DNA of 43,790 nucleotides from an uncultured bacterium (lineage in GTDB: Bacteria; Bacillota_I; Bacilli_A; RFN20; CAG-826): the NCBI GenBank assembly GCA_949299335.1, contig CASGAD010000007.1:1-43790 (forward strand). Reading direction: 5' to 3'. Each line of letters opens with the position of its first letter. The stretch's first letter is position 1. The position numbers were made by a program, and so were the translations under genes. Under the pieces are notes generated by a model. The model ran no database searches. It had not been told where the DNA came from and saw nothing but the letters and a program-made list of their open reading frames with translations. Positions 5,249 to 29,509 of the stretch are shown here, piece by piece.

Positions 5249-7153
5249 ATGGAAAGAAGAAAAATTCAACCTTTAACATTACTTTGCTTTAGTTTAGCAA
5301 CTGTCTGTTTGGCTGCATGTAGTTCTCAAACTAATGATGGTTCAATTAAAGAACTTAAGTATGTTGACGGAAGTTTAACTAAGACAACTTACAAAGTTGG
5401 AGAAACACTTGACTTAACAGGTTTAAAGGTTAAATTGTTTACTACTACTGATGGAGTTACTGATGAAGGTGTATTTTATACCAATTTCGAAACGTCTGTT
5501 CAAAATGGTTATGTATTCACTGAAAATGATGTGACAAGTGATAGTAAATATTTTGTCGTTACAATTGATGCTAAAGATGATGGAATCGCTTCTACAAGTG
5601 TTAATTTGACAGTTGAAGAAGAAAATAAAGATGTAGTTAGAAAATATATTGACTATACAAAAGATACATCATTTAAGACAACATATGAGGTTGGTGAAAG
5701 TTTAGATTTAACTGGGTTAGAAATAAAACTTTTTACTGAAACTAATGGTGTTGTTGATGAAGGCGTTACATATACCGATTTTACAACAAATCCTGAAGAA
5801 GGATACACTTTCGTTGAGGAAGATATTAGTAATGAGGCAGAACCTTTCAATTTGATTGTTATTCCTTCAGATTCATCAATCACTTCTTTAACAATTGAGT
5901 TAACAGTAAACGAAGCTGAAGTGGAATTTGTTCCTGTTGAAACAACACCTGCTGAATTTATTGTTGCTTTAAAAGAACAAATGACTTATCAATACGATAA
6001 TGAATTATATAGTGGAAAAGTCACTCCTAATGCAAACTATTTTGAGTTCAAAACTTTAGAGAGTGCCTCTTATGGATATGCCCAAAATTCTAGCGAAATA
6101 ATTCGTTATTCAATTCAAAGAGGTGGAATTAAAAAAGATCAATCGTTTAGTAGAAGCCAATATGCATCCATGTATGACACAGCTTTTATTAAAGAAATTT
6201 GTAATCCTGATGTAATGCCAAATTCAACAGCTTATACATTCCCTGAATCTAGCATTGAATATCTTGCTACTTTAACTTGTATTGAAGGAACAAACGATTA
6301 TGCAATTGATATTAAAAAAGCTCATGATGTTATTGCTTTAATAGCTCCTACTCAAGTTCCAAACGATCCATATCTAGATTTAAGTTATGGAAGTGATGCA
6401 AGAATTAAATTAACAATGCTCACTGAAACATCAATGAGAATATCAGTTAATAATGCTGATTCGATGGTTTCTATGCCAGTTGATACAACTATTACATTAG
6501 ATAAAAATGTATCAATTCCTGAAATTAAAGATTTCCTCAATAACTATGAAAGTAACGAAGGTGCAGAAGTATTAGAAAAGATTAAAACTAAATTAAGTGC
6601 TAATAATTATACTTCTAAAATTACTATTGATGGTACAACCTATACAACAATTTCTACTAGTGATTATTACTATACTGATAATCCAAATGCGACTTATACT
6701 AACGATGTTAAAATCGGAGAAAATAGTATCGAGAAGGCAGAAGGAAATTATAACTTTACAATCGAAAATGGCACATTTAAATTAGGCGAACAATATGTAA
6801 ATTCAGAAGAGACACCATATCAAACAAGAATGATTAGTGCTACAGCTATTGTATCTGGATTTACTAAGAATTTTCTTTATGATGCTGAAGGAGATTTATA
6901 TTTCTACGAATTAGATGAATACGATACAAATTATTACAATGCAGCTCCATTATTCTATGCACTTATTACAGGCAATGCTAAACCTTATAAAGTCACAGAA
7001 ATGTCCTGCACTTATGTATTGAAAAATGAAGATGTTGAATCCATCGTTTTAGATTTCTATGATGGAGAAAAGTTAATGGCATCAGCAACAGTTAATGATT
7101 TTGGTACATCAAAAGTTGATGCTATTGATAGTTATTTAGCTTCGATTAAGTAA
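5249..7153 (+). CDS. surface lipoprotein with two tandem Ig-like (Big_3-type) domains
   Basis: This 634-residue lipoprotein has a lipobox LAAC (Cys24). It then carries two obvious tandem repeats (about 36-123 and 132-221), each opening with the TYKVGETLDLTGL pattern typical of bacterial Ig-like group 3 domains. The two copies are roughly half identical. The rest consists of two larger modules of unknown fold beginning near residues 237 and 445. Each starts with an amphipathic helix, and the second continues into an NYT strand and a YYY-containing strand, a layout shared with four neighbouring lipoproteins. The start has a good ribosome-binding site (GGGAG). It is the first gene of a five-gene operon running to 13625. 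An extracellular binding role is likely, but the ligand is unknown. Confidence 0.75.
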   Translation: MERRKIQPLTLLCFSLATVCLAACSSQTNDGSIKELKYVDGSLTKTTYKVGETLDLTGLKVKLFTTTDGVTDEGVFYTNFETSVQNGYVFTENDVTSDSKYFVVTIDAKDDGIASTSVNLTVEEENKDVVRKYIDYTKDTSFKTTYEVGESLDLTGLEIKLFTETNGVVDEGVTYTDFTTNPEEGYTFVEEDISNEAEPFNLIVIPSDSSITSLTIELTVNEAEVEFVPVETTPAEFIVALKEQMTYQYDNELYSGKVTPNANYFEFKTLESASYGYAQNSSEIIRYSIQRGGIKKDQSFSRSQYASMYDTAFIKEICNPDVMPNSTAYTFPESSIEYLATLTCIEGTNDYAIDIKKAHDVIALIAPTQVPNDPYLDLSYGSDARIKLTMLTETSMRISVNNADSMVSMPVDTTITLDKNVSIPEIKDFLNNYESNEGAEVLEKIKTKLSANNYTSKITIDGTTYTTISTSDYYYTDNPNATYTNDVKIGENSIEKAEGNYNFTIENGTFKLGEQYVNSEETPYQTRMISATAIVSGFTKNFLYDAEGDLYFYELDEYDTNYYNAAPLFYALITGNAKPYKVTEMSCTYVLKNEDVESIVLDFYDGEKLMASATVNDFGTSKVDAIDSYLASIK

Positions 7154-7172
7154 GCTATATAGGGAGGAAAAT

Positions 7173-8612
7173 ATGAAGAAACAAATACTTGCAATTTCTT
7201 TATTAGGTTTAGTTTCCATTACAAGTTGTAGTGGAGACTTAACTGATGGAACAAGTGGTTCATCAGTTAAATTTAATGATATTGTTTCTAAGATGCAAAA
7301 AGGCTTTACTGCAAGTGGAACAATTCAATCAAAAACTATTTATTATACAGACAGCAATTTTAATACAGTAAATGAATCTAGAGATGCTGAAATAGTAAAT
7401 TACACATTCTCATTTACTTATGAAAATTCTGAAAATTACATAGGAATGGATCGTAAGATCTATTCTTTTGATGAAAAAGGAAACACACACTTAGTAGTTG
7501 ATGAAAATATTACTAATGATAATGATAAAGTTAAGTTAAATTATTTGTCATATGGCAATGAAGTTTTAAGCGATTACGCTTACGATTCAAGTTATATCAA
7601 TACTATTTCTTATGGCGCTTCTGGTTTAAATAACCCATTCTTATCAATCGATAAAAATGACTTTAATTTAGTAAGCGATATAAGTTGTACACTTGATAAT
7701 TCAAAAGTTTCATTGATGCTTTACAATATGTTCAGTATTATCGACTCACAAGCATTCAATTTACCAGCAAGTAGAAACATCATTTCAATTAATGAAAATG
7801 GTGACTTAGACAAAATGATTATTGATACTGACGAAGCAAAATATTCAGCTACTGATACAAGTTATGTTAATCAATATGTTGGCATGACTTATAAAGTTAG
7901 TTTAGAGTTCTCAAATCAAGGTGAAGCTTCAGCAAAAGACTTAATGGTTCCAGAGGCTGAAAAAGAAGAAAATAAATCATTACAAGAAGTTTTTGACAAA
8001 ATGGAAGGTCAAAACTTAATGATTAAACGTGTTTTGCACGCTTATTATGATGGAGTCGAGGAAGAACTTAACGAAACAGTTAGATTATATTTTGATGGAG
8101 AAAAGATTTTCTATCAATCATATTACTATGATGATGAAGCATCTATTACAGGTGTTACAGATTCCGATTTCTTATTAATGAGACAAGATCCAGAAGAAAA
8201 CGCTTTATCTGCTTATACTCGTAATTCAAGTGGAAAATGGTCTGTTTCAAGTGGTTATTCTGGCGTAACAGGTTATCCATATGAAGCTTATTTACCAGTA
8301 ATTGGCGATATTAATGCAAATATATTTGAATATGATGCTGAAAATGATGTTTATTATCTTCCTGAATCTTTAAGTGTTTATTGGCTTTTAGATGGATGTA
8401 TGCTTCCTACAATGGCAGTAAGCCAAGCTTATTTCTTTGACTATTTAAATAGAGTTGAAATTAAGTTAAAAGAAAACGGGGACATTGAATACATGAAAAC
8501 ATCATTCTATAGAGATGCTGGAATGTATATTATCGAGGGCACATATGATATTACATATGAATATGGACCAAGTGTTCAAATGCCATATAACATTGATTCG
8601 GAGGTAAAATAA
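7173..8612 (+). CDS. two-module surface lipoprotein, unknown function (paralogue A)
   Basis: This 479-residue protein has a short signal peptide and lipobox (ITSC, Cys19). It lacks the Ig-like domains and consists only of the two modules seen in its neighbours, beginning near residues 35 (FNDIVSKMQKGFTASGT) and 269 (SLQEVFDKMEGQNLMIKR). It is clearly paralogous to the next gene: both have a YYTD/FYTD strand followed by FNTV/FSTV and later a SYGASGLNNPF/MHGAGFNNPF motif. A strong AGGGAGGA site precedes the ATG, and only 19 bases separate it from the gene before. No catalytic motif is visible. A peptide- or lipid-binding lipoprotein is a guess from context. Confidence 0.7.
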   Translation: MKKQILAISLLGLVSITSCSGDLTDGTSGSSVKFNDIVSKMQKGFTASGTIQSKTIYYTDSNFNTVNESRDAEIVNYTFSFTYENSENYIGMDRKIYSFDEKGNTHLVVDENITNDNDKVKLNYLSYGNEVLSDYAYDSSYINTISYGASGLNNPFLSIDKNDFNLVSDISCTLDNSKVSLMLYNMFSIIDSQAFNLPASRNIISINENGDLDKMIIDTDEAKYSATDTSYVNQYVGMTYKVSLEFSNQGEASAKDLMVPEAEKEENKSLQEVFDKMEGQNLMIKRVLHAYYDGVEEELNETVRLYFDGEKIFYQSYYYDDEASITGVTDSDFLLMRQDPEENALSAYTRNSSGKWSVSSGYSGVTGYPYEAYLPVIGDINANIFEYDAENDVYYLPESLSVYWLLDGCMLPTMAVSQAYFFDYLNRVEIKLKENGDIEYMKTSFYRDAGMYIIEGTYDITYEYGPSVQMPYNIDSEVK

Positions 8613-8613
8613 C

Positions 8614-10068
8614 GTGAAAAATATATTAAAAAGTATTTTATTGCTTTCTTCCTTGACTTTAGCAAGTTGTGCAAACACACCTGAATCTCCTGTCGAAGAA
8701 GAACTTTCCCCTTTAGCTAAATCACTTGAAAAAATTAAAAAAAGCTTTACTTTTGAGGGAAATTTAATCCAAACTAGACAATTTTATACTGATGAAACTT
8801 TTTCAACAGTTGATAATAGCGGATACGAAGAATCTGATTTAAGAAGTGAATCTAATTTAACTTTTTACTTTGCTGAAGATGGATTTAGAAGATCAGTAAC
8901 TATTAAAGACGCAGCTACTAATCAAGATATTCCATATTTAGATGAAACATATTTTGCAGATGAAAACGATTATGCATATGAAGAATATTTATCTTTTGAA
9001 AATACAATTGGAAGAGATTATTTGACTGATACATACAATTATGTTTCTATGCATGGAGCTGGATTTAATAATCCATTTGAATATATTTACGAATCTGATT
9101 TTACAAAAAATGAAGATGATACATATTCATTTAGTTTAAGTAAAGCTAGTGAAATGTTCTTTAAGTTATGTTACTTCTTTGCAACTGGAGCTGAAAATGC
9201 TGGCGGATCAGCAACTGCAACAATAAACGCAAATGGAGAAGTTACATCAATTTCATATTCTCCTATAACTCGTTATGTTATTGAAAGTGATACATATACT
9301 CAACAAACCTTATATTATTCTATTGAACAAACTTTTACTTTCTATGTAATTGACGCTGGTTCTACAGAATTAGAACATATTTCATTAGAAGAAAAGAAAG
9401 ATAACACAAATTTAAGTGCTGCCTTTAATAAATTTAATGTAAGTAATTCAACTATTTCTATTACTAATATTGAAGAAGGTTTCACCGAAGATATTTACGA
9501 ATATAATAAGATTTATCTTGATGGCTCAAGTGCTTACGTAAAATATTATGAAGATAGTAGCAGTGGTATTGGTTCATCAACAGAATTAAATGCTAAATAT
9601 GATTATTTATTAACTGAAAATGAAAATATGCCAGGAAGATACGAAGCTAGAGGTTATAACACCGAAGCAAAAGTACGGTTACCTTCTAATACAACTAGAT
9701 TTGGAAATCTACATCAAGATACTTATTCATATACTGATTTTGTACCAACATTAAAAGGTTTATCTAGTGACTTATTTACTTACGATAGTGAAACTAATGA
9801 GTATATTTGTGAAAATGGTGCTGCAAGTGATGTTGCAATTAATGCATTATTACCAAATGCGAGTGAATTACGTGTATCTTCTGCTTCAAATGCAAATAAA
9901 ATTGCTATTCAATTAAATACTGACAATACTATAAAACTTGTCACTATCTATTATTCATATTTAGATTTCTCTAGTGAAACACTTACAACACAAGGAAGAA
10001 TTGTTATTAGATACCAAAATATTGGTAGTACAGAGATTCCTTTTAACGCATTAGATAATTTAGGATAA
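8614..10068 (+). CDS. two-module surface lipoprotein, unknown function (paralogue B)
   Basis: This 484-residue lipoprotein (lipobox LASC, Cys19) is a tandem paralogue of the gene before it, with the same two modules beginning near residues 37 and 266. It starts with GTG one base after the upstream stop codon. The ribosome-binding site (GGAGG) lies inside the end of the upstream gene, so the pair should be translated together. The mature protein is acidic and rich in Tyr, Ser, Thr and Asn, with predicted beta structure. No enzyme motif is visible. Divergence between the two copies is high, so the duplication is old. Confidence 0.7.
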   Translation: MKNILKSILLLSSLTLASCANTPESPVEEELSPLAKSLEKIKKSFTFEGNLIQTRQFYTDETFSTVDNSGYEESDLRSESNLTFYFAEDGFRRSVTIKDAATNQDIPYLDETYFADENDYAYEEYLSFENTIGRDYLTDTYNYVSMHGAGFNNPFEYIYESDFTKNEDDTYSFSLSKASEMFFKLCYFFATGAENAGGSATATINANGEVTSISYSPITRYVIESDTYTQQTLYYSIEQTFTFYVIDAGSTELEHISLEEKKDNTNLSAAFNKFNVSNSTISITNIEEGFTEDIYEYNKIYLDGSSAYVKYYEDSSSGIGSSTELNAKYDYLLTENENMPGRYEARGYNTEAKVRLPSNTTRFGNLHQDTYSYTDFVPTLKGLSSDLFTYDSETNEYICENGAASDVAINALLPNASELRVSSASNANKIAIQLNTDNTIKLVTIYYSYLDFSSETLTTQGRIVIRYQNIGSTEIPFNALDNLG

Positions 10069-10086
10069 TAAGGAGATCAAGATTAT

Positions 10087-11802
10087 ATGAAAAAAGCAAA
10101 ATTTTTATTAATTAATACACTTATATTTGGAACATTTGCTGGTAGTAGTTTAACTTCTTGTTCTTCAGAAGTAGTAACTAGTTATCAAGCTACAGTTAAT
10201 TTTGAATATGATTCAGACATTGTTACTGTCGAAATTAAAAACGCAAAGGAAAGCTATTCCGAAGGAGATGTTATTTCTTTAAATTTAACATTTGATGAAG
10301 GATATGCTTTAAGTTTTGCAACTTTAAACGGAAACGAAATCGAAGATGTTAATTCTGTTACATTAGAAGCAGGCACAAATTTTATTAAAATTTATGCTAA
10401 AACAACTGGAAGTTTATCTGGAAGTACAAACATTAGAGATTTTACTTTCCAAGCAGTTTCTGCTACTGAATATGGAATTACTTCTTATGTTCCAACTGGT
10501 ATTTATCCAGAAGTAGTTGAGATTCCTGAAACTTACTTGGGCAAAAATGTTACAACAATTGCAGCAAATGCTTTTGTATCTGCAGGTGGAATCAGTTACA
10601 TTAAAATTTCTAAAAATATTACTAACATTCAAGATGGTGCTTTTAAGAGTTTATCTACATTAAAAGGTTTTGAAGTTGATGAAGCAAATACTGCTTACGC
10701 TTCAGTAGATGGCAATTTATACGATAAAAATAAGACTTTATTTATCGCTTATGCTCAAGCTAATCCAATTGAAGTTAGTTTACCAAGCACAGTTAAAACA
10801 ATTAAAGGTAGTGCTTTCTATGGAGCAAATAGACTTGAAGCGATAACACTTAATGAAGGTCTTGAAACAATTAGCGCTAATGCTTTTTATGGTTGCCAAT
10901 CATTAAAATCTATTGTTATTCCTAACACAGTAACAACAATAGGTGAATACGCATTTAAGGGTTGTTCAGCTCTTAAAACAGTTACTTTGTCAACAAACTT
11001 AACAGGTATTAACGATTATACATTTATGCAATGCCTCGATTTAACTGATTTAGAAATTCCTGGTAGCGTTAAATATATTGGTGCAGGTGTTTTCTTAAGT
11101 TGTTACGATTTAAAAACAATCAAATTAAATGAAGGTTTAGAAGAATTAAGAGATGATTCTTTATCATATAGTGGAATCGTTGAATTAAAAACACCAAATA
11201 GTTTAAGAAAAGTTGGCAAAAATACATTTGCTGGATGTGATAATTTAACAAAGGTTACATTCAACGAAGGTTTAGAAGAATTAGGTGATTATACTTTTAA
11301 CATTACTAAATTATTAAGTTATGTAAATATTCCTTCTACAGTTACAAAAATTGGAAAAGCAGCATTTACAGCTTGTTTATCATTAAAGGAATTTGATGTA
11401 AGCGCTGATAATACTGCTTATAAAGCTGTTGATGGAGTCTTATTTACTAAAGATGGTAAAACATTAATTGCTTATCCTAACTCAAAAGACGCTAAATCAT
11501 ATACTATTCCAGAAGGAACTGAAACATTAGATTTTAGATCATTTGCTTATATTTCTAACAATCCATATAGTGAATCAAGTTCATATTACAGCTTAGAAGA
11601 ATTAACTATTCCTACTAGTGTTACAACAATTAAGAATTCATTCTATGGTGGAAAACTTAAAAAGATTACATATTTAGGTACAGTTGCTCAATTTAATAAA
11701 ATTGCTTCAAAAACACATATTGACGAAACTACTGAATATAGTTGGAATGATGGAGCAAGTATCGAAACTGTTGAATGCAGTGATGGTACTTGGAGCAACT
11801 AA
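10087..11802 (+). CDS. BspA-type leucine-rich-repeat surface lipoprotein
   Basis: A 571-residue lipoprotein (lipobox LTSC, Cys25). Residues 34-107 form a small beta domain with the pattern GYxLxxxxLNG then LEAGTNxIKI, which recurs in the two proteases of this block. From about 120 to 560 there are leucine-rich repeats of the BspA/LRR_5 kind, with recurring units such as LPSTVKTIKGSAFYGANRLE and IPNTVTTIGEYAFKGCSALK. Such repeats form curved adhesive surfaces, and in Treponema, Bacteroides and Trichomonas relatives they mediate binding to host proteins or other bacteria. Two inserts (ANTAYASVDGNLYDKNKTLF and a similar one later) are also typical of this family. A GGAG-type site precedes the ATG. 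It is fourth in the operon, just ahead of the metalloprotease. Confidence 0.85.
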   Translation: MKKAKFLLINTLIFGTFAGSSLTSCSSEVVTSYQATVNFEYDSDIVTVEIKNAKESYSEGDVISLNLTFDEGYALSFATLNGNEIEDVNSVTLEAGTNFIKIYAKTTGSLSGSTNIRDFTFQAVSATEYGITSYVPTGIYPEVVEIPETYLGKNVTTIAANAFVSAGGISYIKISKNITNIQDGAFKSLSTLKGFEVDEANTAYASVDGNLYDKNKTLFIAYAQANPIEVSLPSTVKTIKGSAFYGANRLEAITLNEGLETISANAFYGCQSLKSIVIPNTVTTIGEYAFKGCSALKTVTLSTNLTGINDYTFMQCLDLTDLEIPGSVKYIGAGVFLSCYDLKTIKLNEGLEELRDDSLSYSGIVELKTPNSLRKVGKNTFAGCDNLTKVTFNEGLEELGDYTFNITKLLSYVNIPSTVTKIGKAAFTACLSLKEFDVSADNTAYKAVDGVLFTKDGKTLIAYPNSKDAKSYTIPEGTETLDFRSFAYISNNPYSESSSYYSLEELTIPTSVTTIKNSFYGGKLKKITYLGTVAQFNKIASKTHIDETTEYSWNDGASIETVECSDGTWSN

Positions 11803-11804
11803 TT

Positions 11805-13625
11805 ATGTTTAAAAAAAGAAAAGTACTTTTAAGTGTATTATCGCTTTCTTTGCTTGCTATTAGTGTTTCCTGCAGTAATGGCAATAATGATGACGATGAT
11901 AACATTAATCAAAATGAAAATAAATTTACAATTAAGTGGAACTATGATGAAGATGCTTTAAGCATCTCATCTAATAGTTCTATTGATGATTTAGTCGTTG
12001 GAGATATTTACAGATTTAAAATCGAAATAAATACTAATTATTATTTAGAATCTGTCGAAGCTAATGGTTCAAAACTCTTTGAGGGTGCAAGTAGTTATTA
12101 TAATTTTATTATCAAAGAAGGTGAAAATGTTGTAACTATTACTACTGGTTCTTATAGTGAGTATGAAGTTGAAAAGATTGAAAAGAATTCTAAAAACACT
12201 TATAACACTTTATGGAATAATTGGGGCTATCCTCATTTGAATTCTGTAGGTGAACAAAAACTATTAGTTATCCCTGTTATTGTCAAAGATTACACCGAAG
12301 CAGTAACTGATAAAACTTTAGAAGATTTAAATAAGGTTTTCTTTGGAAGCAGCGATGATGTTGATTATGAGTCTGTTAGCTCATATTATGAAAAATCTAG
12401 TTATGGAAGATTTAAACTTAGTGGTGAAGTAACTCCATGGTTTGATTGTGGATATACATCTAAAGAAATTGCTACTTATAAAGATCCTGAATTAACTAAT
12501 TCAAGTATTGTCGATTATGGCACATATAGAATATTAGAAGAAGCTCTTGAATGGGTAAAAGAAACGCAAAAGTCCATTGATTTAACTGATTATGACACAA
12601 ATAACGATGGTTTTGTTGATTCAGTTTACTTAGTTTACAGTGCAGAAACATTTTTAGGAGATAATTCTTTAGCACAATATGGTACAGCTTTTTGGAACTT
12701 TACTTTCTATGATGTAACTAACGAAGGAAAAGGTAATGTTGAATCTCCTGTAGGGATGACTTACTCTTGGTCTAGTGTACAAACAATGTATGCAGGTCCA
12801 TATAGTGCTAAACCAGATGCTCATACTTATATTCATGAATTTGGTCATGCTTTAGGATTATCTGATTATTATGACACTCAAGCTAATGCTAATAGTGGTT
12901 TGTCATATACTTCACCAATGGGAGGTCTTGATATGATGGACTTCAATATTGGAGATCATAGTGCATTTTCTAAGTATGCCTTAGGATGGCTTGAACCAAC
13001 AAGAGTTTATGGTGATTATGGAGAAGTTGAATTAACCCTTAGACCTTCAAATGAAAGTGGGGATGCAATCATTCTTACTTCAAGTGATTTTAATGGAACA
13101 CCATTTGATGAATATTTCATGATTGAATATTTAAATGTTGAAAATAGTGAAGATAACTTAAATTACTATGACTCAGTAAATGGATATCCATCAACAATTT
13201 CTCTAGGTAAAAAAGATTATTTTTATAAAAAGAGCGGAATAAGAATTACTCACGTTGATGCTAGAGCAATTGATGAAACTATTACTTATCAAGATGATAT
13301 AGATAACATGAAATTGACTAAGTTCTCAAATACTGGAACTACTCAAAAGGTTGGTTATTATGATCCAACAAATAATAATCCTTATTTGCTTCAATCATTA
13401 GTGAGCGCAAATATTTCAAGAAATGTCTTAGGAGTTTATTTTACAGCTGATTCTTCTGACTTATTCTTGGAAGGAGATATAGCTACATTTGAAACTGGTG
13501 ATGAAAATAATAGAAATTCTATGATCCCTTCTCAAAGCAATTTCTTTGATGATGGAACTGAATTTAAATTTAAAATTGAGATTAAAGAGTTTTCAGAAAC
13601 TAGTGCGACTATTAGAATTTACTAA
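11805..13625 (+). CDS. M6-family (immune inhibitor A-like) metalloprotease, lipoprotein
   Basis: A zinc metalloprotease of 606 residues with a lipid anchor at Cys23 (SVSC), followed by an Asp/Asn linker and the small GYxxxxVxxNG-type beta domain (about 40-113). The catalytic domain shows features of the M6 family: LLVIPVIVKDY, SVSSYYEKSSYGRFKLSGEV, DYDTNNDGFVD (possible calcium site), the zinc site HEFGHALGLSD (H344, E345, H348, D354), the SPMGGLDMMD turn and SAFSKYALGWLEP. It should cut proteins just outside the membrane. An upstream in-frame ATG exists at 11790, but GGAG at about 11792 with nine-base spacing selects ATG 11805, two bases after the LRR gene stop. The catalytic residues are intact. 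Confidence 0.88.
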   Translation: MFKKRKVLLSVLSLSLLAISVSCSNGNNDDDDNINQNENKFTIKWNYDEDALSISSNSSIDDLVVGDIYRFKIEINTNYYLESVEANGSKLFEGASSYYNFIIKEGENVVTITTGSYSEYEVEKIEKNSKNTYNTLWNNWGYPHLNSVGEQKLLVIPVIVKDYTEAVTDKTLEDLNKVFFGSSDDVDYESVSSYYEKSSYGRFKLSGEVTPWFDCGYTSKEIATYKDPELTNSSIVDYGTYRILEEALEWVKETQKSIDLTDYDTNNDGFVDSVYLVYSAETFLGDNSLAQYGTAFWNFTFYDVTNEGKGNVESPVGMTYSWSSVQTMYAGPYSAKPDAHTYIHEFGHALGLSDYYDTQANANSGLSYTSPMGGLDMMDFNIGDHSAFSKYALGWLEPTRVYGDYGEVELTLRPSNESGDAIILTSSDFNGTPFDEYFMIEYLNVENSEDNLNYYDSVNGYPSTISLGKKDYFYKKSGIRITHVDARAIDETITYQDDIDNMKLTKFSNTGTTQKVGYYDPTNNNPYLLQSLVSANISRNVLGVYFTADSSDLFLEGDIATFETGDENNRNSMIPSQSNFFDDGTEFKFKIEIKEFSETSATIRIY

Positions 13626-13652
13626 ACGACAGTTAACCAAAAACTGTCGTTT
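13624..13652 (+). terminator. hairpin at the end of the first lipoprotein operon
   Basis: AAACGACAGTT (13624-13634) pairs perfectly with AACTGTCGTTT (13642-13652) around a 7-base loop, and overlaps the stop codon of the metalloprotease. The T-run is short. The loop AACCAAA (13635-13641) can alternatively pair with TTTGGTT (13650-13656), giving a second, mutually exclusive stem. Confidence 0.6.
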
Positions 13653-13697
13653 GGTTCACTGATAAGCGTTGTCTTATTATTAAAATAATATTAATAA

Positions 13698-13730
13698 TTT
13701 ACATATATATTTTATATATATTATATGTAT
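13698..13730 (+). promoter_or_regulatory. promoter with imperfect palindrome shared with the oppA promoter
   Basis: TTTACA (13698-13703) is a good -35 candidate, with TTATAT at 17 bases or TATTAT at 15 bases as the -10. The -10 lies in ATATATTATATGTATG (13716-13731), a 16-base string identical to one in front of oppA (23076-23091). There the sequence forms a perfect 9-base-arm palindrome. Here the left arm has two mismatches. Confidence 0.5.
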
Positions 13731-13760
13731 GTTATATGGTATTTCGATGGAGGAGAATTT

Positions 13761-15908
13761 ATGAAAGGAAAATATTTAAAAGCGATTGCCTTATGTTCTC
13801 TCGTTAGTTTAGGAACTGTAGGTTTATACGGATGTGCTTCTACTACATCAAGTAAAATGGAAATTTTACCTACAACTGGTGAATTAAACGAAAACGGACA
13901 ATTCGATGCTAAAGTCAATATGACTTATACATTCAAAGCAGTTTTAGACCTTGATGATACAGAAAGTAGTGCTGTAACATGGTCAAGTGATTCATTGGCA
14001 GATGTTCAAATCGTTAAAATTGATGATTTAACATGTGAAGCTACATTTAAATCAGCAGGTGTATTTACAATTGCTGCTTCATTAACTAGCGATGAATCAA
14101 TTAGTGCCAGCCTTCAAGTAAATGTTGCTAAAGGTCAAGAATCATATAAACTTGAAATCGATACAGCAACAGCCAAAATTACTTATGTTCAAGGCGATAA
14201 ATTTTCAAGCGAAGGGTTAGTTGTTAGCCGTATATTATTTGTTGATGATGTTGCTACATCAGTTTCAACTACTTTAACTGAAGAAGACTATACTTTATCA
14301 ATTAATGGTAAAGAACTTAAAGATGGTGATATTTTAGAGACAGCTGATTCATTTACTGTTGATGTTGATGCAAATGGCATTACTGGAAGTTATGCAATTA
14401 GAGTTGTTGCTAGTGAAATTTACCCATTTGTTAAAGCAGTTCGTAGTTTAGCAAATGATAATTATACAATTGGCTATGCAAGTGGAGATTATTTGTATTC
14501 AGATAGACTCATATCTAACGATTATGTCGTCAATTATAATTTAAGCGAAGTTTATTATAATACTAGTAATGGAGTTAAAAAATATACTGTTCAATCTAGC
14601 GAAGATGAAACTCAAACATTGTCTGATTCTGGATATTTCTATAAAGATTTTGTAGAGCCATGCACTGATGTAAGCGAAGTTAATTCACTTCAAGGTTATG
14701 TACCAGCAAGTACTTATTCTGAATCATGGTTGACAGAAGAACATGTTGGCTATTATGAACAAGATAATCTTGTAGGATACGCAATTGATCAAATTATTGC
14801 TGAATTCTTCTTAAATATTTCAGGATATAGATTTGCAACTGTTAACTTAGATATCCAAGGCGGATTATTTATGATTAGTCAATTTGGTGATGGTAGCGAA
14901 TTCTATGAAATTTATGTCTTTGGCACAGATGGTACTGGCGAAACACAAACTATACCTGTTTACATCTTAGCAGTTGGTACATCATTCGATGAAACAATTG
15001 AAAATATGGTTAGTGAATGTAGTACTAAAACAGCAGTTGATGGCGTATTAAAGAGTGGAACTGACGCTATTGGAAGTGGTAACTTCAAAGTTAGAACACA
15101 ACCTTTGCAAGATGATTTAAAAGTTTATTCATATAGTGAAGTTACATTTACTGATGATTACTACTATCAAGCTTACTATAATGCTAGAAAATCTGATTTA
15201 AGTGATAGTGAACTTGATGAATCATACGCACTTTGTAACATTAATGTAAATCCAGATGATCCTGAAAATCTTAATGTTTATGACTTATCATATAGCGAAG
15301 AGACAGAAGGTGAATTTGTCTTTGGCGAAGAACCATTAGCAGCAGGAAGTACCTTATTTACTAACTATAAGACAATTGCTTATCGTGATAGTTATAATGA
15401 GTATGTAGGTACAGATTATAGTTACACAATCGATCCTACTCACTGGGTTGGATTTGCATTACCTGGATCATATGATGGAACTGAATTAGAAGAATACTTC
15501 AAAAATGGTTTCTATGATTATTGGAATGTTGAATACTATGAATACGAAGTATCTGGCGAAGATGTTGTAATTAGCTCAGTAACATATGCAATGTATGGCG
15601 AATATGCTGCTTTAGATGTAATGTTTGGAATATTCGGTATGCCATATGCATATTTACAATATGGATTAGGTGCTACATATCATTCAGTTACTTTAACAGT
15701 TAATTTTGACTTAGAGAGCGGCGCACCAACCGAATATATATATTCAGTCAGAATTACAATGCCTGCATCAGGAAATACAGCGATGTATAAAGGATTGCCA
15801 CTTAACTGGGATTATGCAACTTTAGTTGCTACAGGCGATGCTGCTAGAGATACAACAGTTGATGCTAAGATTGCTGAATTTGAAGCAAGTTTAGGAGTCA
15901 CAGCTTAA
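13761..15908 (+). CDS. surface lipoprotein with two Ig-like domains and two modules
   Basis: A 715-residue lipoprotein. I start it at ATG 13761, preceded by GGAGGAG and followed by a clean signal peptide with lipobox LYGC (Cys25). The longer frame from 13725 adds 12 residues that spoil the signal. Residues 30-125 look like a Big_2-type Ig domain (VTWSSDSLADV), and 130-215 a Big_3-like one (ITYVQGDKFSSEGLVV). Two modules like those in the neighbours follow, near 222 (PFVKAVRSLANDNYT) and 423. It stands alone between a hairpin before it and a strong terminator after it, and has its own promoter, which shares a palindrome with oppA. Role inferred from context: binding of extracellular protein or peptide. 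Confidence 0.72.
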   Translation: MKGKYLKAIALCSLVSLGTVGLYGCASTTSSKMEILPTTGELNENGQFDAKVNMTYTFKAVLDLDDTESSAVTWSSDSLADVQIVKIDDLTCEATFKSAGVFTIAASLTSDESISASLQVNVAKGQESYKLEIDTATAKITYVQGDKFSSEGLVVSRILFVDDVATSVSTTLTEEDYTLSINGKELKDGDILETADSFTVDVDANGITGSYAIRVVASEIYPFVKAVRSLANDNYTIGYASGDYLYSDRLISNDYVVNYNLSEVYYNTSNGVKKYTVQSSEDETQTLSDSGYFYKDFVEPCTDVSEVNSLQGYVPASTYSESWLTEEHVGYYEQDNLVGYAIDQIIAEFFLNISGYRFATVNLDIQGGLFMISQFGDGSEFYEIYVFGTDGTGETQTIPVYILAVGTSFDETIENMVSECSTKTAVDGVLKSGTDAIGSGNFKVRTQPLQDDLKVYSYSEVTFTDDYYYQAYYNARKSDLSDSELDESYALCNINVNPDDPENLNVYDLSYSEETEGEFVFGEEPLAAGSTLFTNYKTIAYRDSYNEYVGTDYSYTIDPTHWVGFALPGSYDGTELEEYFKNGFYDYWNVEYYEYEVSGEDVVISSVTYAMYGEYAALDVMFGIFGMPYAYLQYGLGATYHSVTLTVNFDLESGAPTEYIYSVRITMPASGNTAMYKGLPLNWDYATLVATGDAARDTTVDAKIAEFEASLGVTA

Positions 15909-15928
15909 TAAAATATATACGTTATAAT

Positions 15929-15956
15929 AAAAGAACCGTTTCACAACGGTTCTTTT
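15929..15956 (+). terminator. strong Rho-independent terminator
   Basis: AAAAGAACCGTT (15929-15940), a TCAC loop, and AACGGTTCTTTT (15945-15956) give a 12-base perfect stem ending in a T-run. TATAAT lies immediately before it (15923-15928) without a -35. The next gene starts only 36 bases later with no clear promoter, so partial readthrough may feed it. Confidence 0.85.
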
Positions 15957-15991
15957 ATAGCCAATATAGGAAAGAAAACAAGGAGAAATAA

Positions 15992-18238
15992 ATGAGAAAA
16001 AGTAGAAAAAGCACATGCGTTATCGCTTTAGCCTCTCTTATTATGCTTGGCACAAGTATAATGACTTTAAGTTCATGTTCAAATTCCGATACTACAAGTA
16101 CTTCCGAAGCCAAGGTAGTTATTACTGGTGGAAAGAATGGATATGTAGGGGATTCTATTCAACTTACAGCTCAAGTATTTGGTTTAGATAATAAGGAAGT
16201 TTCTTGGACAAGTAGTGATACAGGATTAGCAACTGTTGATAGTACTGGTTTAGTGAAACTTGTTGGAGCAGGAAGTGTTAAAATCGTCGCAACTTCAGTT
16301 GCAAACACAAATGTTAAATCATCTGCATTGACTATTAATATTTTTTCAACAGAAGGTGGTACAAAACAACTTGAAGTTACATCTTTACCATCAAAAACAT
16401 CTTATAAAGTTGGTGATGCATTTAGCTTAGAAGGTATTCAAGTTACTGGTTACTCATATTTAAATGGAATTAGAGTTGACAACACTGGTGTTAATATTGA
16501 ATTAGCAGATTTAACTTTCTCAATTAAAGAAGGAACTACTTTAAGTACAACTGGTACTATAACAGTAGAAATTACAAAAGAAGGTTATAGCAAAGCTTCA
16601 TTCAAAATTGAAGTTAATACCAAACTTGTTGAAAAGTATCTTTATATTTCAAAATTGCCTACAAAATGTGAGTATTTAATTGGAGAAGATGCTACTCAAG
16701 AAGAGCAATCATTTGATCCAACTGGCATTGAAGTAAGAGAAGTTACTTATGAAGATGGTGTTAAAAAGAGTGAAATCAGAACTACAGACTACGATTTAAG
16801 CGTTAGTAAAGGCGAAAAATTTATTGTTGAAGGAAATCATGAGATTACTGTTTCAAAAGATGGATTTGATAGTGCTTCATTCACAGTTATGGTTTATACC
16901 AAAGATATGACTGTTTATAACACAATTAAAACACTTCAAACAGCTAAGAACTTCCAAATTGAAGTATTAAATAACGTTGGTACAACTCGTGATAGTTATG
17001 GTTTCCACTATTTAAGAACTTATACAGAAAATTATTATGATGAGATTGAGTACCAAAATACATACAATAGTGAAACTCAACAAATTGAATTCACAACAGA
17101 TAAGATAAAATCTCATACAGGTTTTGCTTCATATAAAACAGGCAATGAATATGGTGTCTTACAATATGGTGAAAATAGTATTGGTAGACTTCAATTCATG
17201 TCTTATGTTTCAGAAGGTATGAATTCTTGGTGGGAGAGAGCAAGCACATTAGCTTCATTATTTACAGTATTTAATTTAAATCAAATTCCTGTAAAAACAT
17301 TAAATAGTAGATATGTAGTCATTACTGTTGAACAAGTTGATGGTGATGATGATATGGGTACTAAAACTATTGCTAATTATCCATTAATTGAATCATTCCT
17401 TTCATATTGTGGATGGTCATCTTCCTTAATTACTATTATGGATAGATTTACTGTTTCAATAAACGATGATGGTCAATTATCGATGCTTGCTTCGTTTGGT
17501 TATTATGGTTCAACTGAACTTAAAGTACTTCAAATTGGTGGAGCAAGCAATGAAGCTGTTGAAAAAATCTTAAATGGTACTGGCTTTACTCCAACTAAGA
17601 CTGTTTTAACAGAAGTTGAAGATATTAAAAATAAATTTAAAGCAAATAACTATAAGAGATTTGAATATGGATCAAACGGAATTACATCAACTGTAACCGA
17701 TGTCTATAATGAAAAATACTATTATAGTGTTACTTCTAGAACTGGAATTATCCAATTAGGTACTGAGTTATATAATTTCACTGGAAAGCGTAATGGAAGT
17801 ACTTATGAAGTAGTATTAGGAGATAAGATTGTATCTGATGCTGCTTCTGTAGCAGACTATATGGCAACTTCAAATACAGCTCTTCCATATGTCTATTCAG
17901 GATTAAGCACAATCTTTGGTGGAGATAATGATAGTGGAAGATTATATACATTCTCAGAATTTAGCAGTTTCTCAACTGATTTAGAGGTTTGCTATCAATC
18001 ATTTGACACATCAGTTATTAACAATCTTACCGAATATTTTGGTCAAGAAGTTACAGATGCTAGAGCTTGGTTCTTAGCTTCTTATACTGATGCTAATCGT
18101 TCACCAGATTCATTAAAGAATGTTGAAATTTGGAATATTTCATTCACAGGTAGTGGCGGAAGCGGTTTCGTTGGTGCTTATGGTGACTTTGGAAATGGAA
18201 GCTTAGATTGGATCAATAGCTTCTTAGAAAGTAATTAA
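15992..18238 (+). CDS. surface lipoprotein with three Ig-like domains and two modules
   Basis: A 748-residue lipoprotein (lipobox LSSC, Cys29). Residues 36-122 are a clear Big_2-type Ig domain: GYVGDSIQLTAQV, VSWTSSDTGLATVDSTGLV and a closing VKIVATS strand. Two Big_3-like domains follow (about 127-210 and 215-305), each opening with the P-x-K-x-x-Y-x-x-G pattern. Two larger modules begin near 309 (YNTIKTLQTAKNFQIEV) and 543 (VEDIKNKFKANNYKRFEY). A good AAGGAG site precedes the ATG. It is followed 22 bases later by the subtilisin-like protease, so they are co-transcribed. No enzymatic motif is visible. It may dock substrates for the protease. Confidence 0.75.
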   Translation: MRKSRKSTCVIALASLIMLGTSIMTLSSCSNSDTTSTSEAKVVITGGKNGYVGDSIQLTAQVFGLDNKEVSWTSSDTGLATVDSTGLVKLVGAGSVKIVATSVANTNVKSSALTINIFSTEGGTKQLEVTSLPSKTSYKVGDAFSLEGIQVTGYSYLNGIRVDNTGVNIELADLTFSIKEGTTLSTTGTITVEITKEGYSKASFKIEVNTKLVEKYLYISKLPTKCEYLIGEDATQEEQSFDPTGIEVREVTYEDGVKKSEIRTTDYDLSVSKGEKFIVEGNHEITVSKDGFDSASFTVMVYTKDMTVYNTIKTLQTAKNFQIEVLNNVGTTRDSYGFHYLRTYTENYYDEIEYQNTYNSETQQIEFTTDKIKSHTGFASYKTGNEYGVLQYGENSIGRLQFMSYVSEGMNSWWERASTLASLFTVFNLNQIPVKTLNSRYVVITVEQVDGDDDMGTKTIANYPLIESFLSYCGWSSSLITIMDRFTVSINDDGQLSMLASFGYYGSTELKVLQIGGASNEAVEKILNGTGFTPTKTVLTEVEDIKNKFKANNYKRFEYGSNGITSTVTDVYNEKYYYSVTSRTGIIQLGTELYNFTGKRNGSTYEVVLGDKIVSDAASVADYMATSNTALPYVYSGLSTIFGGDNDSGRLYTFSEFSSFSTDLEVCYQSFDTSVINNLTEYFGQEVTDARAWFLASYTDANRSPDSLKNVEIWNISFTGSGGSGFVGAYGDFGNGSLDWINSFLESN

Positions 18239-18260: not shown

Positions 18261-21200
18261 ATGAAAAAGAATAAAATTGGTTTATTTGTATTAGCCATAG
18301 GTTCAGTTGGTTTTATCACCTGCTGCTCTAATGGAAATACAAATGGCAACTTAGGAGGTAATACTTTAGCTAAAGATACAACCTTCTTAGTTAGCTTAAA
18401 TGGTTCAGCTTTAAGTATGGATGATGCTGAACTTAAAGATATTCAAAATACCTTTATTAATTCTTTAAGATCTACAATTGGTTATGATTTTAAAGTTGAA
18501 ACAACATATAACGCTATTAATACTTTAAAAATCCGTGCAAATTCCGCATATGAAAGTGTAATTTCATCAATGCCTGGAGTTAGCAAGGTTGCTATTAATC
18601 AATCATATAGATTTAGTGAAGTATATAATGGCGAAAGAACCGCTGATGAAATTCAAGAAGGGTACATTCCTTTAACAAATTCAGCGATGAGTGAATTAAG
18701 CGAAACAGTTGATGACGAAAATCAATCAGCCCAATCAATGATGGTTCCTGAAACATCTAATGGTGGAGCTGGTTCATTTGTAGCAATTCTTGATACTGGT
18801 TTTTATCTTGAACACCATGCTTTTCAAGATTTTGCTCCAAACACAGAAGCAAGAGCTAAAGCAGAAGAAAGATTCAATTATGATGATTTAACTGCAGTTA
18901 CTAACGATTTAGTTGCTAGTCGTGATTTAAGTGCTGAGGCTGGTGAAGAAGGAAGCTTATATTATAACTTAAAGATTCCATTCTATTATGATTACGGCGG
19001 AAGCAATTTAAGTGCTACAAATGGATATGACGTCTATTCACAAACTAGTGAACATGGAAACCACGTTGCTTCAATTACTGGCGCTAATGGTACTTATGAA
19101 GGTATCGCTCCAAATTGTCAACTTGCATTAATGAAAGTTTTCTATGAAGAAATACCAACTGATAAAACTGGTGTTGCTTCTAGCTATGCAATGGATGATG
19201 ATATTCTTGAAGCATTAAACGATTGTGTTACATTAGGAGTTGATGCTTTAAATATGTCACTTGGTAGTGATCTTGATGACTTTAGTGATAAGTCAGCAAG
19301 TATGGACGTTATTAATAAACTTTATAATAACGGAGTTAGTGTCAACATTGCTGCTGGTAATGGTGGTAAAGATATGTTCTCACCAATGTATCTTTATAAA
19401 GATTGGGCTACTGATCAAGTCGATTTAGGTATATTAGGAAGCTATTCGAATAGTGATAGCGCTACAATCGTTGCTAGTAGTACAAACGAAAAACAATATT
19501 ACGAAAAAGCAATTCAATTTGGTGAAACTGTTATTGGTTATGATGATCAAGTTGATTATACTGATGGTAGTGATGGCATCAGCAAAGATAAAGAAAGATT
19601 ATTTAGTAGTTTAGTTACTTCAAGTACAGAAACACTTGAAGCAGTCTTAATTACTGATAAAGGAAATACTAATCACTATGGTACAAGCAGCGATTATACT
19701 GATATGAGTAACGCAGTTGGCGATCCTAATTTCTTCGAAGGAAAAGTTGCTATTGTTGATAGAGGTTCAAACTCTTTCGTTGATAAAGCAAATGCCGCTG
19801 AAGAAGCTGGATGTTCAGCATTAATTGTTATTAATAATGACCCAACCGCTATCGAATTTACATTCGGTATGTCATGGTCAAGTGGTGAAAGTTATGATAT
19901 TCCAGAAATTCCTGTCGTCTTTGTTTTAATGAGAGACAGAGATAGTATCATAAATTCATTAAGTGCATATCAAAATGGTGATAGCACATATTCAAATGTT
20001 CAAGTCGGTACATTTAATGTTTTGGAAGAAACTGTTTCTACTAACCCTGATAAATTCAAATTAAGTGATTTTAGTAGTGATGGTGCAACAACAAAATTAA
20101 CAATGGGGCCAACTATTACTGCTCCAGGTTCATCAATTAAAGGTGCTATTTTAGGTGAAGCAGATTCTCAAGGTTTAGTTCCTAAGGAAGATGCTGATCC
20201 AGATAAATATGGCTATTTAAATGGTACTTCTATGGCAACTCCAAACTATTGTGGTGCTGTTGCATTACTTATTGGAGAACAAGAGTTTGCTAGTGAAGAA
20301 GAGAGAAGAGAGTACATTAGATCCATAAATATGAGAACAATGTCAACTGCTCAAATCTATTCTAAAGAAGTTACAACTTATGGTTCTATCGACGAAGAAA
20401 AAGCGATGACTACCCCAGCTGCTAACGAGGAACCTGAAGAAGTTACTATTTACGTTCCAAACGAAGATGAAACCACTGTTGAAACATTACCATACTCACC
20501 TCGTAAACAAGGTGCAGGCGTTGTTGATGTTACTAAAGCTTTAAATTCTAAAGTTTACATTGAAGGACTTGATGTTAAGAGCGATGGAACATTCGCTAAA
20601 GACGATAACGGAAATTATGTTGGCATTAATTATGGTAAAGTTGAACTTAAGAACAATAATTTAATTGCTAATGGAATTGTAAATCCTGGATTTAGAATTC
20701 ATAACGAAACTGGTTTATCAGGTATTAGTTATAAAGTTAAAATGCAATTAATGGCTCCTCAAGTAACTTCATACCATAACCATGATAATGAGCTTGCTAA
20801 CTATGTTGGTAAAGATGCTCAATATGAAGGCGCTCAAGTTCAAACAACAGGTGAACAAGAAATTGCTAATGTCGAATTAGGAACAATCACTCTTAATGGC
20901 GAAACTACCCAAGATTTTACAAATCTTAAATATGAATTATCTGCTGCTCAAAAAGATAAATTAAATAGTCAATTTGAAAACGGCACATATTTAGAAGGTT
21001 ATATCTATCTTGAACCAGTTGGTGTAAGTAGTGAAGATTCAGAAACTAGTGGAATTACAGAATTAAGCTTCCCATTTATGGGATTCTATGATGATTTTGC
21101 ACAAGCAGATGCTGTCGAACCATTTACATTCGAGAAGAAACCTGATTACGATAGAGTAAACGGTGTTACTGATGGAAAATTATATGGTAGTGATTTAGTT

Positions 21201-22559
21201 AATTATTTAGCTATTAATTCATATGGATTATCCGAAGCTAATGTCGAAAGTATGATTGGTGCAACAAGTTTTGACTACTATCAACAAAATAGTAAACGTG
21301 GAGATATTTTAACTAACGTTGATAATATCGCTAACTTTGCAACATTGCCAGTCACTCAAGAAAGTGATGGAACATACACCATCTATGCTGGTGGTAAAGA
21401 TACTGATGTCTTATATATTCAACAATTTGTCTATAGATCAATTGATATTGCTACAGTTCAAGTTATTGATAATAGAGGAAATGTTGTAGCATCAAAATAC
21501 ATTACAGATATGATTACAAATGGTAGTGGATTATTTAAATCTCACGTCGTTTCTGGATATATTAGTAGTGGTATATTAGTCCATAGAGCTTATGCTGAAT
21601 TACCATTATATAGAGAAAATGGTGGTAAATTACCAAATGGAACATATACATTAAAGTTCACATATAACTTACTCTATGGTTCAACTCAAACAAAACAATA
21701 TAACTTGGTTATTGACTACGATTCACCAGAATTAACTTCTAAAACAATCGTAGAAAAGAACGGACAAAAAGTCTTAAGACTTAAGTTCAATGAAATTTAT
21801 TTACCAAGTGAAACTAGAATCCACGTTAATGGTGACCAAACAACATTTACTTTAACTAAAGTAAGTGATGGATTCGTTATTGATATTGTTCTTGATGATG
21901 CATTCTTAAATGGAAAATTATACGTTTACATTGAAGATGGTGCATATAACTATGGAACATATATGATTAATGAAACAGCTGTTAATACTGGTTTATTTAT
22001 TAGAAGTGATGCTTTAACTCTTGGTTCTAACTATACTTACACTGTCACAAGCAATGCTTCAAGTGATCAAAATATCAATGATACATTCGAAGTTAACGCT
22101 ACTGACTATGCTGGTAAGAGCTTGAACCTTGGTACATATAGTGCTTATGTCACTTATGATAGAAAAGTTAATTCATCAGTCGTTGTATATGGAGTTAATG
22201 CTGATGGCTCTACAACAAGAATTAGAGATGTTACATTACTTAACAATACAACATTAATTGTTAACACAAATTACACCAAGTTTATGGTTGTTGATAGTGG
22301 ACTTCCAAACGAATCAATTTCTAAAGAAGATAACGCTACAGTTAGCGTTTCTACCCCAACTAATGGACAAGTATTTGTCGATAAGATGAGTGGTATCGCT
22401 GGAGAATCCATTGTTATTTATGCAATTCCAAATTCAGGATATACTGTTGATACAGTAACTGTTAATGGAAAATCAGCAACAAAAGATAATAATGGCAACT
22501 ATCAATGGATCCTTGAACAAGGTGAAAATAACGTTGTAGTTACATTTAAAACAAAATAA
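18261..22559 (+). CDS. lipid-anchored subtilisin-like S8 protease (lactocepin/C5a-peptidase type)
   Basis: This 1432-residue protease has an intact catalytic triad: D178 (VAILDTG), H265 (HGNHVAS) and S657 (GTSMATP), with oxyanion N367 (AAGNGG). Order of parts: signal peptide with a lipobox at Cys21/Cys22; an I9-like propeptide (about 40-120); the catalytic domain, split by a protease-associated (PA) domain (about 450-590, KVAIVDRGSNSFVDKANAAE); Fn3-like domains of the C5a-peptidase kind from about 770; and a final small beta domain (about 1360-1432) shared with the LRR and M6 proteins. Relatives in lactic acid bacteria and streptococci cut casein or host proteins and are anchored at the C-terminus by LPXTG. 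This one has no such signal and is tethered by lipid at the N-terminus. The RBS is AGGAGG. Confidence 0.93.
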   Translation: MKKNKIGLFVLAIGSVGFITCCSNGNTNGNLGGNTLAKDTTFLVSLNGSALSMDDAELKDIQNTFINSLRSTIGYDFKVETTYNAINTLKIRANSAYESVISSMPGVSKVAINQSYRFSEVYNGERTADEIQEGYIPLTNSAMSELSETVDDENQSAQSMMVPETSNGGAGSFVAILDTGFYLEHHAFQDFAPNTEARAKAEERFNYDDLTAVTNDLVASRDLSAEAGEEGSLYYNLKIPFYYDYGGSNLSATNGYDVYSQTSEHGNHVASITGANGTYEGIAPNCQLALMKVFYEEIPTDKTGVASSYAMDDDILEALNDCVTLGVDALNMSLGSDLDDFSDKSASMDVINKLYNNGVSVNIAAGNGGKDMFSPMYLYKDWATDQVDLGILGSYSNSDSATIVASSTNEKQYYEKAIQFGETVIGYDDQVDYTDGSDGISKDKERLFSSLVTSSTETLEAVLITDKGNTNHYGTSSDYTDMSNAVGDPNFFEGKVAIVDRGSNSFVDKANAAEEAGCSALIVINNDPTAIEFTFGMSWSSGESYDIPEIPVVFVLMRDRDSIINSLSAYQNGDSTYSNVQVGTFNVLEETVSTNPDKFKLSDFSSDGATTKLTMGPTITAPGSSIKGAILGEADSQGLVPKEDADPDKYGYLNGTSMATPNYCGAVALLIGEQEFASEEERREYIRSINMRTMSTAQIYSKEVTTYGSIDEEKAMTTPAANEEPEEVTIYVPNEDETTVETLPYSPRKQGAGVVDVTKALNSKVYIEGLDVKSDGTFAKDDNGNYVGINYGKVELKNNNLIANGIVNPGFRIHNETGLSGISYKVKMQLMAPQVTSYHNHDNELANYVGKDAQYEGAQVQTTGEQEIANVELGTITLNGETTQDFTNLKYELSAAQKDKLNSQFENGTYLEGYIYLEPVGVSSEDSETSGITELSFPFMGFYDDFAQADAVEPFTFEKKPDYDRVNGVTDGKLYGSDLVNYLAINSYGLSEANVESMIGATSFDYYQQNSKRGDILTNVDNIANFATLPVTQESDGTYTIYAGGKDTDVLYIQQFVYRSIDIATVQVIDNRGNVVASKYITDMITNGSGLFKSHVVSGYISSGILVHRAYAELPLYRENGGKLPNGTYTLKFTYNLLYGSTQTKQYNLVIDYDSPELTSKTIVEKNGQKVLRLKFNEIYLPSETRIHVNGDQTTFTLTKVSDGFVIDIVLDDAFLNGKLYVYIEDGAYNYGTYMINETAVNTGLFIRSDALTLGSNYTYTVTSNASSDQNINDTFEVNATDYAGKSLNLGTYSAYVTYDRKVNSSVVVYGVNADGSTTRIRDVTLLNNTTLIVNTNYTKFMVVDSGLPNESISKEDNATVSVSTPTNGQVFVDKMSGIAGESIVIYAIPNSGYTVDTVTVNGKSATKDNNGNYQWILEQGENNVVVTFKTK

Positions 22560-22563
22560 AAAT

Positions 22564-22597
22564 GTTTGGTTTGCTAGCTTTGTCTAGCAAACCAAAC
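22564..22597 (+). terminator. 14-base-pair hairpin without a T-run
   Basis: The arms 22564-22577 and 22584-22597 (core TTTGCTAG/CTAGCAAA) pair perfectly around CTTTGT. No T-run follows, so it is a poor intrinsic terminator and may instead protect or separate the protease mRNA from the DUF3899 gene, whose ATG lies 18 bases later. Confidence 0.55.
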
Positions 22598-29507: not shown

Positions 29508-29509
29508 TT

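Follow-up and report, generated by a model that had tools for sequence, protein, structure and literature searches.

Three groups of described lipoproteins provide the closest comparisons for the proteins studied here. In mycobacteria, LprG, LprF and LppX are single-domain lipid-binding lipoproteins, which are lipid-anchored and extracytoplasmic. LolA, LolB and RseB show the same kind of half-barrel with helices and act in the periplasm of diderm bacteria. Staphylococcal Csa1A (DUF576) and SAOUHSC_02783 are lipoproteins of a Gram-positive genus, and the staphylococcal tandem lipoproteins contain one domain each. In addition, the MIB-MIP system of Mycoplasma, from wall-less relatives within the same class as our organism, places a surface lipoprotein gene beside a protease gene. 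Hydrophobic ligand binding has been described as the unifying feature of the LolA-type fold, while VioE and RseB illustrate other uses (PMC6363788). The DUF576 lipoproteins sit in paralogous clusters (PMC5020093). On tandem LolA-like lipoproteins of Gram-positive bacteria, our literature search found nothing on point. Here we analyzed a window of 43,790 nucleotides (the whole of positions 1 to 43,790 of contig CASGAD010000007.1, assembly GCA_949299335.1) from an uncultured gut bacterium of the GTDB lineage Bacteria; Bacillota_I; Bacilli_A; RFN20; CAG-826. Five lipoproteins encoded in this window, designated A to E, each carry two copies of one module. They are a tandem variant, partly raised on immunoglobulin-like (Ig-like) stalks, of the known LolA/LppX/LprG fold superfamily; the family is new, and the kind of fold is not. 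Unlike the single-domain mycobacterial proteins, members of this family have two to four modules, often on Ig-like stalks. Unlike LolA, LolB and RseB, they are surface lipoproteins of Bacilli, a monoderm class in which no outer membrane is expected.

A tandem module in five lipoproteins

All five open reading frames exist, and a signal peptide with a lipobox cysteine could be read directly at the N-terminus of each translation. All coordinates below are window positions on the plus strand. Lipoprotein A (5249–7153) contains two Big_3 Ig-like domains followed by module 1 (residues 235–431; 5951–6541; iterated-profile E-value 2.6e-24) and module 2 (residues 442–631; 6572–7141). Lipoprotein E (15992–18238), with orthologues 41–47% and 80% identical to it, contains one Big_2 and two Big_3 domains ahead of module 1 (residues 309–528; 16916–17575; E-value 1.5e-32) and module 2 (residues 542–746; 17615–18229; E-value 2.5e-27). 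The Ig-like domains of A and E passed the Pfam cut-offs. Lipoproteins B (7173–8612) and C (8614–10068) have none; B consists of module 1 (approximately residues 33–262; 7269–7958) and module 2 (approximately residues 263–467; 7959–8573), and C, a full-length homologue of B, of module 1 (approximately residues 35–262; 8716–9399) and module 2 (approximately residues 264–483; 9403–10062). Lipoprotein D (13761–15908) probably carries Ig-like domains too, judging by the likeness of its N-terminal part to that of E. Two divergent modules follow: module 1 (approximately residues 220–420; 14418–15020) by an in-register profile alignment and the limits 222–421 of its orthologue L093, and module 2 (approximately residues 423–706; 15027–15878) by a weak but in-register match of the orthologue L101 (residues 428–670, independent E-value 0.033).

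This architecture agrees with the original prediction, made from the sequence alone, of five lipoproteins with zero to three Ig-like domains before the modules. The module starts it had placed near residues 237 and 445 (A), 35 and 269 (B), 37 and 266 (C), 222 and 423 (D), and 309 and 543 (E) are in agreement with the profile limits for A and E, the AlphaFold2 starting helices of B (34–43 and 265–277), the B-C alignment for C and the orthologue limits for D. The N-Y-T-like strand described as typical of the modules was recovered in three of the window proteins (A, D and E) and in the family at large, but not in B and C.

Pairwise comparison gave little hint of a common module. BLAST among the five proteins linked only B and C over their full length (approximately 1e-18), and A, D and E only via their leader and Ig-like parts, so that BLAST alone would have suggested unrelated modules. 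Genome searches with the module pair of A or D as a single query retrieved almost no relatives, and profiles were needed. Relatives were collected, and 25 modules delimited by eye gave a seed profile. Because seeds score themselves, each family was left out in turn in a jackknife. With A omitted, its module 2 was still detected at 1.8e-6. With the E family omitted, orthologues in L051 and L053 were detected at 5.6e-11 and 1.1e-4, and the window's own E was weak (0.06 and 0.66). The jackknife profiles also detected a C-family protein of L043 at 9e-6. Most of the modules tested were thus recovered by a profile that lacked their own family. Among the shuffled decoys, one scored 0.0012 and the rest lay above 0.009. 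Iteration of the profile search raised the total to 100 modules, carried by 51 proteins from the genus and its relatives, and no decoy was detected. Most of these modules form C-terminal rows of two or three.

B, C and D, which are more distant, were connected by profile-profile comparison. The module profile aligned with module 2 of the B/C set at P 2.3e-6 over 175 columns, and the two modules of the B/C set aligned with each other at P 3.3e-5, while column-shuffled profiles and neighboring families gave P 0.5–0.9. For C itself, module 1 matched module 1 of B at P 4e-23, and module 2 matched the module profile over nearly its full length (probability 90, P 1.6e-6). We then utilized a composite profile containing both modules from 27 proteins. 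Over its whole length it aligned with B/C at P 1.7e-5 and with D at P 1.6e-6 (8e-4 once D was realigned), against 0.5–1.0 for shuffled and reversed controls and 0.01–0.8 for other gene families. Module 1 of the D orthologue L093 was matched directly at 2e-6 by a profile built without the D row. On the strength of the composite alignment and the L093 match, we count D in the module family, with less certainty than A, B, C and E. Overall, all five proteins carry two copies of the module: the evidence is strong for A and E, comes from profile-profile alignment and structure for B and C, and is weaker for D. The proposal of one expanded family with variable stalks is thus supported by the jackknife profiles and the profile-profile alignments, as well as by the module tree described below.

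The family is described by no family database, although its predicted fold is recognizable. Scans of 86 modules against Pfam and NCBIfam and of 50 B/C proteins against Pfam gave no significant match, and neither did the module profile against PDB sequences. The same Pfam scans and PDB search revealed no sequence homology to LppX or LprG.

Predicted fold of the modules

Two structures were predicted with AlphaFold2. For module 2 of A, with 86 modules in the alignment, the mean predicted local distance difference test score (pLDDT) was 74.6 and the predicted template modelling score (pTM) 0.76. The first PDB match by Foldseek was a LolA at an E-value of 0.018. In VIA-align, LprG (Z 8.2), LprF (7.9) and LppX (6.9) ranked on top, followed mostly by LolA. 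For B, predicted from 50 B/C sequences, pLDDT was 89.1 and pTM 0.82, and the order helix-strands-helix-strands occurred twice. Module 1 of B matched LprF and LprG with rows at Z 9.7–10.4 (best values 10.4 and 10.3, respectively), compared with 7.7 for the first unrelated row, and LppX at 7.4. Module 2 of B matched SAOUHSC_02783 (Z 6.5), LolA (4mxt, 6.0) and RseB (5.8), and Foldseek returned LolA for B at a probability of 1.00. Csa1A matched B at Z 6.0, and the matches of the two staphylococcal proteins to B span Z 6.0–6.6. Membership in DUF576/Csa1 was considered and found no support in the sequences: DUF576 is absent among the Pfam matches, and the likeness to Csa1A is structural. Porins and lipocalins also appeared in the Foldseek and VIA-align lists; they ranked below the LprG and LolA rows, and we took them as generic barrels.

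In both models the order of strands and helices is that of a curved antiparallel sheet with plugging helices. The modules of A and B are therefore predicted to fold as LolA/LppX/LprG-type half-barrels. The models behind this call are those of A module 2 and B; the call for C follows from B, and that for E from the profile it has in common with A. The LolA/LppX-like fold, which had been offered as a guess, turned out to be largely right, being the best structural match of both models. Accordingly, the modules no longer deserve the label of an unknown fold, while that of an undescribed family still applies to them. Sequence identity to LprG, LprF and LppX in the structural alignments was only 4–13%, and no curated sequence family of the superfamily matched the modules. 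Since sequences within this superfamily are known to share very little similarity, the missing sequence match limits membership at the level of the family and not of the fold.

The resemblance might also be merely convergent, the mark of a generic curved antiparallel sheet. For A module 2, a Z of 8.2 is close to what models lacking a clear match typically reach as their best score, and its best Foldseek E-value is the 0.018 given above. Nevertheless, the model of B (pLDDT 89) placed LprF and LprG above all unrelated rows and gave LolA at full Foldseek probability, and the two models, made from separate alignments, agree. We regard convergence as improbable.

Distribution and history of the module family

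The source genome measures 1.4 Mb in 37 contigs and is 98% complete. Relatives among the named genomes are mostly labelled as uncultured Bacilli, and one comes from the omasum of a roe deer. Modules were found in 98 of the 279 genomes of the order, spread over four families, and among 392 genomes sampled across the phylum, just two outside the order had a match, both from the same class. The B-C family occurs in 65 of the 279 genomes, often as an adjacent pair, and the pair is present in four families. Between genera, B is only 26–29% identical; some residues of each module are invariant.

In a tree of 83 modules, first modules clustered mostly with first modules and second modules with second modules. 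Five position changes were needed among the two-module proteins, and 12 for all labels, compared with a mean of 42.8 after shuffling; orthologues inflate this position signal, and the backbone of the tree is weak. No recent duplicate of a module within a protein stood out, except for a doubtful long-branch join in L054. The grouping by position and the scarcity of recent pairs argue that the duplication predates most gene copies. Hence the tandem duplication appears to be older than most copies of the gene, with the whole gene then copied and diversified. A second cluster of module lipoproteins lies on another contig of the same genome (C11; loci L058 and L059), where they are mixed with leucine-rich-repeat (LRR) lipoproteins and one Big_2 lipoprotein and include one three-module protein.

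Rapid divergence of this kind is also what adhesins or variable surface antigens might show. On this account, selection would act on the outer surface of the fold and not on its cavity, as in the staphylococcal tandem lipoproteins (Lpl, Csa1). The low identity of B between genera, the Ig-like stalks, the BspA-type LRR neighbors, the many paralogues and the structural match of Csa1A to B are consistent with such a role. On the other hand, the conservation of the B-C pair in four families and the invariant residues in both modules look like a fixed function and not like antigenic variation. We therefore consider this explanation unlikely.

Co-encoded genes and proposed function

From A at 5249 to the Opp ATPase ending at 33436, every gene points in the same direction. 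The order is A, B, C, a BspA-type LRR lipoprotein, an M6 metalloprotease, D, E, an S8 subtilase, DUF3899, an OppA-like lipoprotein, and Opp permeases with their ATPase. The LRR lipoprotein (10087–11802; LRR_5 1.5e-67) adjoins C in other genera too. The M6-family metalloprotease is itself a lipoprotein (11805–13625; Peptidase_M6 9e-12, M6dom 4.8e-27). The S8 subtilase, with a PA domain (18261–22559; Peptidase_S8 1.2e-29), lies beside E in all relatives whose contig reaches that far. A large lipoprotein (23133–26126), with Big_2 as its sole Pfam domain, occupies the place of the OppA-like binding protein, a role suggested by its position before the Opp-type ATP-binding cassette (ABC) permeases and fused ATPase (26369–33436; BPD_transp_1, OppC_N, ABC_tran, oligo_HPY). 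Promoter-like sites were no commoner than in shuffles, so no claim of an operon is based on them.

Three arrangements recurred among the relatives: (A)-B-C-LRR; D-E-S8-DUF3899-OppA; and two M6 genes followed by a protein of ~560 amino acids, a three-module protein of ~670 amino acids and a Big_2 lipoprotein of ~950 amino acids. The window joins the first two. The Opp genes lie downstream in the window, and OppA-like genes occur in relatives. Within the retrieved loci, an M6, S8 or LRR gene lay at most three same-strand genes away for 65 of the 72 module or B/C genes, versus 55 of the 287 other genes. The ~950-residue Big_2 lipoproteins (L095 12574–15456 and orthologues) may hold remote modules of their own, since their C-terminal part gives a weak alignment (P 0.011) to the profile of both modules. 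In five loci (L043 12000–14867, L045 12663–16439, L046 5347–9129, L047 7029–8501 and L048 6934–9234), the place of A before B-C-LRR is taken by a lipoprotein with apparent InlB-B-type repeats throughout, in which no module was found.

Taken with the predicted fold, these neighbors suggest a function at the cell surface: the tandem modules would act as clamps capturing hydrophobic cargo, either lipids or hydrophobic peptides. We put the probability of this reading at roughly 0.45. The curved sheet of each module would hold a hydrophobic ligand, much as characterized proteins of this fold do. The Ig-like domains of A, D and E act as spacers, and the stalk they form would hold the module pair away from the membrane. 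The cargo could be acyl lipids, or hydrophobic or lipidated peptides that the neighboring M6 and S8 proteases release; once captured, it would be kept at the surface for Opp uptake or membrane insertion.

Such a scheme would suit an organism without fatty-acid synthesis of its own. A FabF model at an E-value of 0.001 found no match in any of the 26 genomes of the genus, whereas 13 of 14 control genomes had matches. Four DegV/FakB-like genes are present in this genome, and three to five in most of the 26 genomes; proteins of the FakB type are carriers of exogenous fatty acids. The organism may lack a fatty-acid synthesis of its own, though the absence of FabF alone is no proof. That absence favors lipid cargo; the proteases and the Opp genes favor peptide cargo.

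The same proteases allow a different explanation, in which the modules are partners of the enzymes: adaptors, chaperones or inhibitors that hold substrate or protease, as RseB holds RseA or as MIB presents a target to MIP. E adjoins the S8 gene in relatives, the pair of ~560- and ~670-residue proteins follows two M6 genes in seven genomes, and RseB is among the structural matches. Yet in other genera the usual neighbor of B-C is the LRR gene, and the retrieved loci show no protease there. Furthermore, the likeness to MIB-MIP is only an analogy, and the proteases of the window are M6 and S8 enzymes. A role as protease partner is thus somewhat unlikely in our estimate.

Several points weigh against the capture of hydrophobic cargo. 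The neighbors point to peptides and the absent FabF to lipids, and neither is direct evidence. FabF is also missing from those genomes of the genus in which no modules are detectable, so life without it does not depend on them. The association with protease and LRR genes counts orthologues many times. As VioE and RseB show, the fold can serve non-lipid roles, and the fold assignment of D, made by profile alignment, is weaker than the others.

If hydrophobic cargo is indeed captured, a bolder version can be proposed, in which tandem LolA-type clamps on Ig-like stalks remove acyl lipids or lipopeptides from feed, from the host or from neighbor cells, together with the co-encoded secreted proteases, in gut Bacilli unable to make fatty acids. 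This version is on the doubtful side. If true, it would be a lipid-scavenging system in a lineage for which none is known. More generally, a large, order-wide family described in no database gains a predicted fold, a history of its duplication and a function open to testing, and it would tie the lipid-carrier fold of LolA and LprG to the way in which reduced, uncultured Bacilli of gut and rumen capture nutrients. Dependence on lipids or peptides is also a concrete thing to try when cultivating these Bacilli.

Three further observations concern the gene run. The last of the Opp genes (29510–33436) is a single open reading frame of 1308 amino acids in which the ABC ATPase part and the oligo_HPY tail each occur twice, an apparent fusion of OppD and OppF. 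The subtilase gene is immediately followed by a 14-pair hairpin (22564–22597); no terminator-like stem in the region is stronger, and its T run was scored on the minus strand. Finally, in one related genome (G085; L051 5449–6805 and 9066–10339), the operon seems to be decaying, its C, LRR and M6 genes being either split or truncated.

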